From positions 149,960 to 210,508 of the forward strand of contig PLZD01000058.1 in assembly GCA_003151975.1 (NCBI GenBank): a stretch of 60,549 bases of DNA. Direction: 5' to 3'. Within the stretch, counting starts at the first letter, position 1, and each line of letters begins with the position of its first letter. This document shows positions 55,595-60,549 of the stretch, piece by piece. The DNA is from Elusimicrobiota bacterium. Its GTDB lineage: Bacteria; Elusimicrobiota; Elusimicrobia; UBA1565; UBA9628. Both the position numbers and the translations under genes were made by a program. Below the pieces are notes generated by a model, which saw nothing but the letters and a program-made list of their open reading frames with translations, searched no databases and had not been told where the DNA came from.

Positions 55595-58321
55595 TTAGGC
55601 CCCTTTCGACACTTTTTCGATCGTTAGCCAACGATTGGTGCCGGCGAACTTCTGGTGCATGCGGGTCGTGGGCTCACCGTCGGGGTTGCCGATTTCGGCG
55701 AGCTGGACGTCGGCCAGGGCGTCGAGGCCGCGGTGGCGGAATTTCTTGAGCGAATCCTCGAGAGCCATGCCGATCGTGCGGAACGCGAGCAAGGTCGAGA
55801 ACTGCAGGACGTAGCCGAGCTCGCCGAGCTGCTTGTTGGTGATGAGCTGGTGCTCCTTCTTGGCCTTGCCCCAGTGCAGCGAGGGCGAGAGGTTGAAGCC
55901 CAGCATCTGATCTGGGTAGTGCTTGTGCACGCCCTCGGCGAAGGCCTGCGGGCCGTCAATTTCGGTATTGTTGAATTCGGCCCAGATCACGTCCACCCCG
56001 AGCGAGGCGGCCTCGAGCGCGCGATCTACCGCGTGCTCGACGCTGCCGCCGCGCCCGCCGGGAACGGCGCCGTCCACGGCGTCGGTGCGCGCGATCGTGA
56101 CGAGATTGACGCCGGTGGCTTGCGCGGCCGCCTTGACCGCGATGAGCTTCTCGATCCACTTGTGCGTGGGCACGAGCACCTTCTCGCGCTTGACGCCGTG
56201 GTGCGCGATGATGTGCCCGCAGGTGCGCTCCGCGGGATCCTGGTCTTCCAAGTGCACGCCGGCAGCACCCGCCCGGATGAGCTCGCGCGTCAGCGTGAAG
56301 GTCTGCGTCGGCCCGCCGAAGCCCGCCTCGATGTCGGCGAATATGGGCGGCGTGTTGATGACTTCCCCGTTGTTGTCGTAGAAGTGCCGATCTCTGGTTC
56401 CCTCGATGCCGCGGATGAGCTCGCGCACGAGCTCGACCATCATGTGCGAGGGGTAGATGCCGATGTCGGGGTACATGTTGTGCGAGACGGCCAGCTGCCA
56501 GCCGCTGGCGTAAATGGCCTCGTACTTGAGGTCGGTCAGCATGGAGGCGGTCATGGCGTCGTAGGCGCCGGCGGTGTGCAGGAAGCAGCGCTCGGGGCGA
56601 TTCTTGCGCAGAGCGAACTTCTCTTGAAGAAGCCGGCGCAGCTTGTCGGATGGATGCCCGGTCTCGTGCGGAGCGTACATTTTGGCGAACTCGGCCTTCG
56701 GATAAATCCACTTCTTGACGCCCTCGGCGTTGCCTTTCTTCGACTCGTTGAGTTCCTTGATCATTTCTTGGCTCCATGCGCTCGCGCGCTGATATTTTTC
56801 CGCGACGGCGGCCGCGTCGGGATCCTTCTTGTGCTCCTTCAAAATATTCGCGAGCTCTTCGTCGAACAAGCGCGCGACCAGCTCCTCGGTGACGATCGTT
56901 CCGTCATTGGTCTTGACCGCGTGGCGGATGCGCTGGGCGGCCATCAGGCGATAGATGCGGTCGGTCGCAAGGTCTTCCATGAAATTGCCGATGAGCGCGC
57001 CCTTGGCATCATACCCTTTGATCATCCGCGCGCCGAGGCCCGAAAGCACGCCGAAGCGGTATTCGATCATCGTGCGGATCGCGTCCCGCGTGCCGGATAT
57101 GGAGACGATGCCGACGCCGGACGGCGTCGGAACCAAGTCCGGCTGGCGCGGCTCTTTGGGATGCGTCACGGAAAGCTGATTGGGCGCGGGAAACTGTCCA
57201 ATGGCGCCCTCGTGCTGGTCGGGGTGCCCCGTCCAAGCGCCGTCAAAGCCGAGCACGGCCTCGTTCTTCTTATCGATTTTGAGGCGCTCGACGGCCCGCG
57301 CGTTGATCTCCGGATTCTGCCGGTCGGGGAAAAGGGCCGTCATGCCGCCGATGGCGAGCGCCCCGCGGCGATGGCAGACGTCGACGATGCGCCGGCGGAT
57401 GTTCTGGAAGAACGGGATGTCGTGCGGGATCGTGTTGCGGTCGGGCAGGATCCAACCGGGGTCGGCGAGCTTGAAGTGAATCAGGCTCGCCATGTAGTCC
57501 CAGCGCCCAAGGTTGAGGCCGATGATGTGGCGCTTGGCGGCAAACAGAATCTCCTCCGCTTGGTAGGCCGCGGGCAGCGACTCGATCAGGAACATGACCT
57601 TGGTCGTTCCCGTGGGCAGGCCGATCGCCTTTTCCATGGCGGCCAGCGCGTCCGAGAACCAAGCGGCTTCTTCATGCGACTCGGTCTTGGGGATGTAGAA
57701 GCACAGCTTGCGTTTGAGCGACTCGTCCTTCAATGAGGCCAGGCGGACGTCCTTCGTGAAGAAAAATACGCAGGCCAGATCGAAGAGAGAGCCCGAGACC
57801 GCCTCGCCCGGCAGGCAGTGCGTTTCGTCGAGATGCAGGCCGCGCGGGCGGTAGAGCATGACCTGGTTCGAGGGCTTTATCTTCGAGACTTTCTTAGTCC
57901 CGGGACCGGTGCAAGTCAGAGTCCCCTTGATCGCGTCGATCGTGTTCTTGTGCGCGGCGGCGACATGCTCCCAGTCGGTCGTGATCGAGTCCTCGCCGTC
58001 GGGCATGCAGCCCGGGTCCCCCGCGTTGCACATGCCGACCAACAGCTTCGGATTATCGGCGGGACCGGTGATCTGGTTGCGCTGATCCTTGGCCCATTCG
58101 GGAAGCGCGATCTTCCATTTACCCTTGGTCGCCTCGGACTCGGGCAGGTAGCCCGGAAGCTTGCCCTCGTGCGCGAGAGCTAGCGCGCGGCGGCGCGCTT
58201 CCAGAAGTTCCTGGCGCCGCGCCTCGAAGGTCCGGTGCAGCGGCAGGAAAAATTCCTTAAGGCCCTTGGGCCAGGCGTCCTTCTCTTTTTTTGCGGCGGG
58301 TTTCTTCGCTGCGGTCGGCAT
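55595..58321 (-). CDS. malate synthase-isocitrate lyase fusion (bifunctional glyoxylate-cycle enzyme)
   Basis: 908 aa. The first ~540 residues are a malate synthase A domain: MLYRPRGLHLDETH, the signature KRHIIGLNLGRWDY (263-276), and Asp450 in NFMEDLATDR at the position of the catalytic Asp of that family. Residues ~570-908 are isocitrate lyase: YASGWQLAVSHNMYPDIGIY, IFADIEAGFGG, VHLEDQ, IARTDAVDG and NLSPSLHWGK. The lyase loop reads RTCGH (Cys701) where KKCGH is usual. One chain would thus cleave isocitrate and condense the glyoxylate with acetyl-CoA. Lys/Ala-rich N-terminus; no signal peptide. A TTGACC/TACTCT promoter lies upstream. Confidence 0.95.
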   Translation of the reverse strand: MPTAAKKPAAKKEKDAWPKGLKEFFLPLHRTFEARRQELLEARRRALALAHEGKLPGYLPESEATKGKWKIALPEWAKDQRNQITGPADNPKLLVGMCNAGDPGCMPDGEDSITTDWEHVAAAHKNTIDAIKGTLTCTGPGTKKVSKIKPSNQVMLYRPRGLHLDETHCLPGEAVSGSLFDLACVFFFTKDVRLASLKDESLKRKLCFYIPKTESHEEAAWFSDALAAMEKAIGLPTGTTKVMFLIESLPAAYQAEEILFAAKRHIIGLNLGRWDYMASLIHFKLADPGWILPDRNTIPHDIPFFQNIRRRIVDVCHRRGALAIGGMTALFPDRQNPEINARAVERLKIDKKNEAVLGFDGAWTGHPDQHEGAIGQFPAPNQLSVTHPKEPRQPDLVPTPSGVGIVSISGTRDAIRTMIEYRFGVLSGLGARMIKGYDAKGALIGNFMEDLATDRIYRLMAAQRIRHAVKTNDGTIVTEELVARLFDEELANILKEHKKDPDAAAVAEKYQRASAWSQEMIKELNESKKGNAEGVKKWIYPKAEFAKMYAPHETGHPSDKLRRLLQEKFALRKNRPERCFLHTAGAYDAMTASMLTDLKYEAIYASGWQLAVSHNMYPDIGIYPSHMMVELVRELIRGIEGTRDRHFYDNNGEVINTPPIFADIEAGFGGPTQTFTLTRELIRAGAAGVHLEDQDPAERTCGHIIAHHGVKREKVLVPTHKWIEKLIAVKAAAQATGVNLVTIARTDAVDGAVPGGRGGSVEHAVDRALEAASLGVDVIWAEFNNTEIDGPQAFAEGVHKHYPDQMLGFNLSPSLHWGKAKKEHQLITNKQLGELGYVLQFSTLLAFRTIGMALEDSLKKFRHRGLDALADVQLAEIGNPDGEPTTRMHQKFAGTNRWLTIEKVSKGA

Positions 58322-60232: not shown

Positions 60233-60549
60233 ATGAACCGCCTCGACAGCTTCAAGACAAAGTCCACTCTTTCGGTCGGCAAGAAAAAATTCGGCTACTA
60301 CAGCCTCAAGGCGCTGGCCAAGCACGGCTTTGCCGTCGACAAGCTGCCATTCTCGCTGCGCATCTTCCTTGAGAACCTTCTGCGCCACGAAGACGGGACC
60401 GTCGTCAAGAAAGACGACATCGCAGCCGTCGCGTCCGCCGCCGGCAAGGCGCCTGAGGCGCGCGAGGTGTTCTTCGTGCCCGCGCGCGTGGTCCTGCAGG
60501 ATTTTACCGGAGTTCCCGCGGTCGTCGATCTTGCCGCCATGCGCGACGC
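60233..60549 (+). CDS. acnA: aconitate hydratase A (3' truncated)
   Basis: The first 105 residues of aconitase A are inside the window, with GKKKFGYYSLKALAKHGF, LPFSLRIFLENLLRHEDG and VPARVVLQDFTGVPAVVDLA. It interconverts citrate and isocitrate, the latter being the substrate of the fused lyase upstream. GGAG at 60221-60224 precedes the ATG. The [4Fe-4S] cysteines lie beyond the window. Confidence 0.95.
   Translation, partial: MNRLDSFKTKSTLSVGKKKFGYYSLKALAKHGFAVDKLPFSLRIFLENLLRHEDGTVVKKDDIAAVASAAGKAPEAREVFFVPARVVLQDFTGVPAVVDLAAMRD

Follow-up and report, generated by a model that had tools for sequence, protein, structure and literature searches.

We identified, in a metagenome-assembled genome of an Elusimicrobiota bacterium, a single gene in which a malate synthase (MS) A-like domain is followed by an isocitrate lyase (ICL)-like domain in one uninterrupted frame. 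We consider it probable (roughly 70%) that its product is bifunctional and catalyses both steps of the glyoxylate shunt, with an ICL that is divergent and has no lid; both activities are deduced from comparison with known enzymes. The gene lies in a window of 60,549 bp (the whole stretch of DNA analysed) at the end of a contig, and the genome (G000) is 4.64 Mb in size and 96% complete. The features of the window are collected in Table 1.

Table 1. Coordinates, within the window, of the fused gene, its parts and its neighbouring pathway gene
Feature	Position	Strand	Basis
Fused malate synthase A-like/isocitrate lyase-like ORF, ATG start, 908 aa	55595..58321	-	Pfam and PDB search
Malate synthase half, residues about 15-515	56777..58279	-	Pfam MS_N, MS_TIM-barrel, MS_C; TIGR01344
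Inter-domain linker, residues 501-537, poorly conserved	56711..56821	-	Between-genera identity
Isocitrate lyase-like half, residues 538-908, without canonical C-terminal lid	55598..56710	-	Pfam ICL, alignment, model
MS catalytic Arg R158 (= E. coli R166)	57848..57850	-	Alignment to E. coli AceB
MS catalytic E247 (= E. coli E250)	57581-57583	-	Alignment to E. coli AceB
MS catalytic D275 (= E. coli D278)	57497-57499	-	Alignment to E. coli AceB
MS catalytic D450 (= E. coli D447)	56972-56974	-	Alignment to E. coli AceB
Signature ERTCGH (residues 698-703) replacing xKKCGH	56213..56230	-	Alignment; invariant in all fusions
Core HHGVKR (residues 707-712) of 7-residue insertion after CGH motif	56186..56203	-	Alignments
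Aconitase gene start, cut by contig end, pathway partner	60233..60547	+	Named from sequence, not by family search

The two domains follow each other, MS before ICL, in one unbroken chain with a variable linker between them. Pfam matches to MS_N, MS_TIM-barrel (193 bits) and MS_C covered residues 18-515, and the match to ICL (156 bits) started from residue 558. A search against the PDB gave malate synthase A for residues 6-500 (E 1e-77) and isocitrate lyase for residues 545-904 (E 1e-48). Between genera, the linker is only 38-56% identical, against 71-83% in the two halves. The full-length AlphaFold model, built on an alignment of six sequences only, had a pLDDT of 34.

Identity to E. coli AceB is 36% for the MS half, compared with 50-55% for other Elusimicrobial AceB proteins, and the MS half forms its own clade in the tree (support 100/99). 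It passed the Pfam gathering scores (PF01274, 193.5 vs 26.4; PF20659 and PF20656 likewise above) and scored 336.7 bits with the malate synthase A equivalog TIGR01344, below the cut-off of 594.5 (controls 797-831 bits). All four catalytic residues (R158, E247, D275 and D450) are kept in every fusion; their catalytic roles are presumably those of R166, E250, D278 and D447 in the E. coli enzyme. On paper, the MS half looks like a normal catalyst.

The first-pass annotation had described both domains as full. The single frame, the MS A domain and the ICL family of the second half stood up in the Pfam and PDB searches, but the lyase is not a full one. In the alignment, the ICL half ends before the C-terminal lid (Mtb residues 411-428, ...GSTEEGQFH), lacks the TGERTxEGF segment of canonical ICLs and carries RTCGH in place of KKCGH, the latter in all fusions and in 3 of 4 standalone relatives. 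In E. coli numbering, K193-K194 are replaced by R-T, with Arg699 at the K193 position, and Q109 is replaced by Ile. Nearly every copy carries the pattern HHGxKR within the insertion that follows the CGH motif. In an earlier alignment of 23 ICLs, every sequence had K193, and the E. coli AceA K193 mutants made (R and Q) showed less than 20% activity (PMC13224001); the C-terminal lid region is considered important for ICL catalysis (PMC5430663). On the other side, 15 ICL substrate or metal positions are kept (S606, G607, W608, D619, D663, E665, E692, C701, H703, R745, E782, N810, S812, S814 and T843), and outside the KK pair Q109 is the only one changed among the active-site positions tested. The Cys, His and metal residues are invariant in all fusions.

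Profile scores placed the ICL half within the family and outside its canonical members: the Pfam ICL gathering score was passed (155.9 vs 26 bits), but the scores of 192 and 200 bits stayed under the NCBIfam ICL equivalog cut-offs (275.9 and 562 bits), which were passed by the controls (the E. coli AceB/AceA pair and two others from Elusimicrobiota). Identity to E. coli AceA is about 30%, against 56-62% for other Elusimicrobial AceA. The ICL half was modelled with a pLDDT of 79 and a pTM of 0.82 from an alignment that included canonical ICLs; the model's best PDB matches were all ICLs, and an ICL fold is accordingly predicted. A PrpB-like enzyme was rejected by profile scores (78 bits with TIGR02317, cut-off 354.4 bits; RTCGH rather than the KRCGH motif) and by the tree, in which the fusions and the standalone ICLs make up one clade apart from canonical ICLs (support 99/97 and 100/100). 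Going by its sequence, the ICL half belongs to a conserved, divergent, lid-less subfamily outside the canonical ICLs. Because the defining features fail, we do not file it as an AceA isocitrate lyase; most likely it works like one.

The fusion was found in 11 of 341 Elusimicrobiota genomes, all from one family and spread over 5 genera, with 71-78% identity. Eight of the 11 copies are intact with no stop, G014 has a run of N inside the gene, and the copy in G033 is incomplete. In the complete genome CP096137 (G230) the fusion copy is frameshifted, and the frameshifts look like long-read errors. A sequencing or assembly error joining two adjacent genes was a natural concern, since in some relatives (L012 and L013) the canonical aceB and aceA genes share a frame and are one stop codon apart, so that a single error could join them. 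Against this, the same ORF is intact in independent assemblies and in 5 genera, and identity between the fused type and canonical AceA and AceB reaches only 29-37%. We regard the chance of such an error as negligible and, because of the independent intact copies, as ruled out; a bacterial fusion with the MS first, as the first-pass annotation had it, is thus borne out. A split canonical operon was also rejected, as canonical aceBA forms a different clade. Codon analysis gave dN/dS values of 0.15-0.25 for the MS half and 0.05-0.17 for the ICL half: both are under purifying selection, with the stronger conservation in the lyase.

Outside the phylum, a scan of genome contigs with two MS peptides (CMPDGED and IGNFMED), which more distant fusions could escape, gave matches only in Elusimicrobiota. 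No member of the fusion's ICL type was found in IMG/VR, and no fusion was present among 80 canonical ICL contigs. Canonical isocitrate lyase itself is encoded on at least 470 IMG/VR contigs (loci include L095-L174), which are likely host DNA or auxiliary genes. On plasmids, the annotated best matches have separate aceB and aceA genes, all under 60% identity. Among the papers in the collection searched, none was found that links Elusimicrobiota to malate synthase or isocitrate lyase.

Standalone members of the fusion's ICL type occur in four genomes (G035, G042 and G230 at 75-77% identity, G033 at ~48%). The fusions group together with support of 62/84, and a test of the standalone copies as one clade gave p = 0.177. 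The standalone copies, that of G033 included, occur only in genomes with another ICL/MS set, and this constant company suggests a different role for them. Two of the RTCGH-type standalone genes, from two genera (L061:3680-4978 and L062:2143-4047), stand in an odd context, directly after a TPR and polysaccharide-deacetylase gene. The G033 relative (L063:3338-4495, G033:C81) is degenerate, with its CGH and metal-binding motifs lost, and is probably a pseudoenzyme or a decaying copy. Full canonical aceB-aceA pairs are present in G019, G026, G034, G035, G037 and G045, of the same family and order, and absent from the fusion-bearing genomes. Three relatives (G033, G042 and G038, at L079, L080 and L081, respectively) have a third and divergent pair of neighbouring MS and ICL genes, with identities to the E. 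coli enzymes of about 28-30% for MS and about 37% for ICL. In three loci, separate MS and ICL genes share one frame with a single stop between them (L012:1785-1789, L013:3000-3004 and L079:2408-2412), plausibly a precursor state for a fusion.

In its own genome, the fusion gene is the only ICL-family match. One other MS-family match, weak, partial and at the family cut-off (26.3 bits), was detected, which we take to be a CitE-like relative, leaving the fusion as the one clear malate synthase. In four genera the fusion has a conserved neighbourhood of aconitase, an FKBP-type gene and a Cys-rich CPXCG gene, joined in three of them by CoA-binding and MBL-fold genes. Synteny of aconitase with the fusion holds in genera g1, g3, g4 and g8, and with a fusion remnant in a fifth (g7). 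The remnant (G006:C28, L066:3280-3492) keeps just the final 71 residues of the fusion; it lies with the CPXCG gene on one side and aconitase on the other, and we read it as a deletion scar. Genes for citrate synthase, an isocitrate dehydrogenase-family protein and GTP-PEPCK are also present in G000, which fits a shunt feeding gluconeogenesis.

The bifunctional reading draws on the domain identities, conservation, selection, catalytic residues, the sole copy in the genome and the aconitase synteny; against it stand the change of K193 to Arg, the missing lid, scores of both halves below the equivalog cut-offs, and standalone copies only beside other sets. In such an enzyme, aconitase would supply isocitrate, the C-terminal half would cleave it to succinate and glyoxylate, and the N-terminal half would condense glyoxylate with acetyl-CoA to malate, so that the fusion would stand in for the separate AceB/AceA pair of other Elusimicrobiota. 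Compensation for K193 and the lid may come from Arg699, from the HHGxKR loop or from a partner subunit, of which the conserved loop would be the natural candidate. The fusion may also hold the two activities in equal amounts and near each other. Channelling of glyoxylate, which the first-pass annotation had suggested, is possible but unsupported.

Two other readings concern the C-terminal half. It may act, next to a working synthase, on another 2-hydroxy di- or tricarboxylate, as a lyase that yields glyoxylate (or another 2-oxo acid); the RTCGH signature, the inserted loop, the absent lid and TGERTxEGF segment, the scores below the ICL equivalog cut-offs and the coexistence of standalone members with other ICL/MS sets all point that way. 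We nevertheless find this unlikely, as all tested ICL substrate and metal positions but one are kept outside the KK pair, ICL profiles score higher (about 200 bits) than those of methylisocitrate lyase (78-99 bits), and the genome has no other ICL to serve the synthase. A C-terminal half with little or no catalytic activity, serving malate synthase in a structural or regulatory role, seems to us distinctly improbable: the loss of the catalytic Lys and the lid would agree with it, as would the standalone relative in G033 without CGH and metal motifs, but of the two halves the lyase has stayed the more conserved, at the low dN/dS given above, and its Cys, His and metal residues do not vary among the fusions. 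A bifunctional shunt enzyme is the reading we prefer.

Fusions of the two enzymes have been described before. The MS-first type is known from Euglena, Acanthamoeba, chrysophytes and a prokinetoplastid, and the source of the euglenophyte fusion was stated as unknown (PMC8219788); the ICL-first type is known from nematodes, and a bacterial ICL/MS fusion was reported from Anaeromyxobacter in 2006 and 2016 (PMC1630690, PMC4921024). The earlier suggestion that such fusions are rare in bacteria must allow for the case already reported; within the phylum, this fusion is confined to a single family. What is new is a conserved fusion with a divergent ICL; bacterial fusions and MS-first eukaryotic ones were already known. 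The Euglena-type protein also joins MS and ICL, in that order, in one chain (PMC1630690, PMC8219788), while the Elusimicrobial one is bacterial and short (908 aa), the two being likened by domain order and published distances only. The p-distance of the Euglena ICL to canonical ICLs (0.70-0.76; PMC1630690) is near the ~70% of the Elusimicrobial ICL half, which is only a lead. The proposal of the first-pass annotation, that a bacterial synthase-first copy may show the source of the eukaryotic fusion, is likewise a lead. The Anaeromyxobacter protein is likewise a bacterial fusion of both shunt enzymes, but an Anaeromyxobacter ICL was placed with the plant/fungal/mycobacterial type (PMC1630690), whereas the Elusimicrobial half, compared by description, falls outside canonical ICLs. 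The bifunctional glyoxylate cycle protein of C. elegans also has both activities in one chain, in the opposite order, and nematode ICL is more than 70% identical to alphaproteobacterial ICL (PMC1630690), against ~30% between the Elusimicrobial ICL half and canonical ICLs. The separate AceB/AceA proteins of Elusimicrobiota and E. coli share with the fusion the fold families, the MS-before-ICL order and most catalytic residues, and differ in being separate genes, with KKCGH, a lid and scores above the NCBIfam cut-offs.

Another multi-enzyme protein was observed in the phylum. Giant ORFs of 6,934 aa in G048 (L065:1054-19899, G048:C33) and 6,139 aa in G062 (L177:572-18988, G062:C16), about 80% identical over most of their length, combine in a single chain, behind a signal-like N-terminus, the domains of a GDH-like dehydrogenase, fructose-bisphosphatase, MS and ICL, and the giant ORF is also present in G064 (L178) and G065 (L179). 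The catalytic residues of its MS are conserved; its ICL retains KKCGH, has a lid-like end, passed TIGR01346 (318 vs 275.9) and, from its sequence, is apparently intact. A search of G048 and G062 for MS and ICL found none besides the giant ORF. To our knowledge, no known giant gene is built of central-metabolism enzymes. Giant genes as such are known in Elusimicrobiota (PMC12057145).

A far-reaching scenario, to which we give very little credence, is that the lid-less ICL active site is completed by the HHGxKR loop and/or the attached MS, so that the fusion would replace the lid and pass on glyoxylate, and that this lineage or a relative donated the MS-first fusion of Euglena, Acanthamoeba and chrysophytes. 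The Elusimicrobial protein is a compact, conserved bacterial MS-first fusion, suited to expression and structure solution; it represents an ICL branch that dispenses with two features believed to be needed for catalysis, and it supplies bacterial sequences with which the origin of the protist MS/ICL fusions may be tested.
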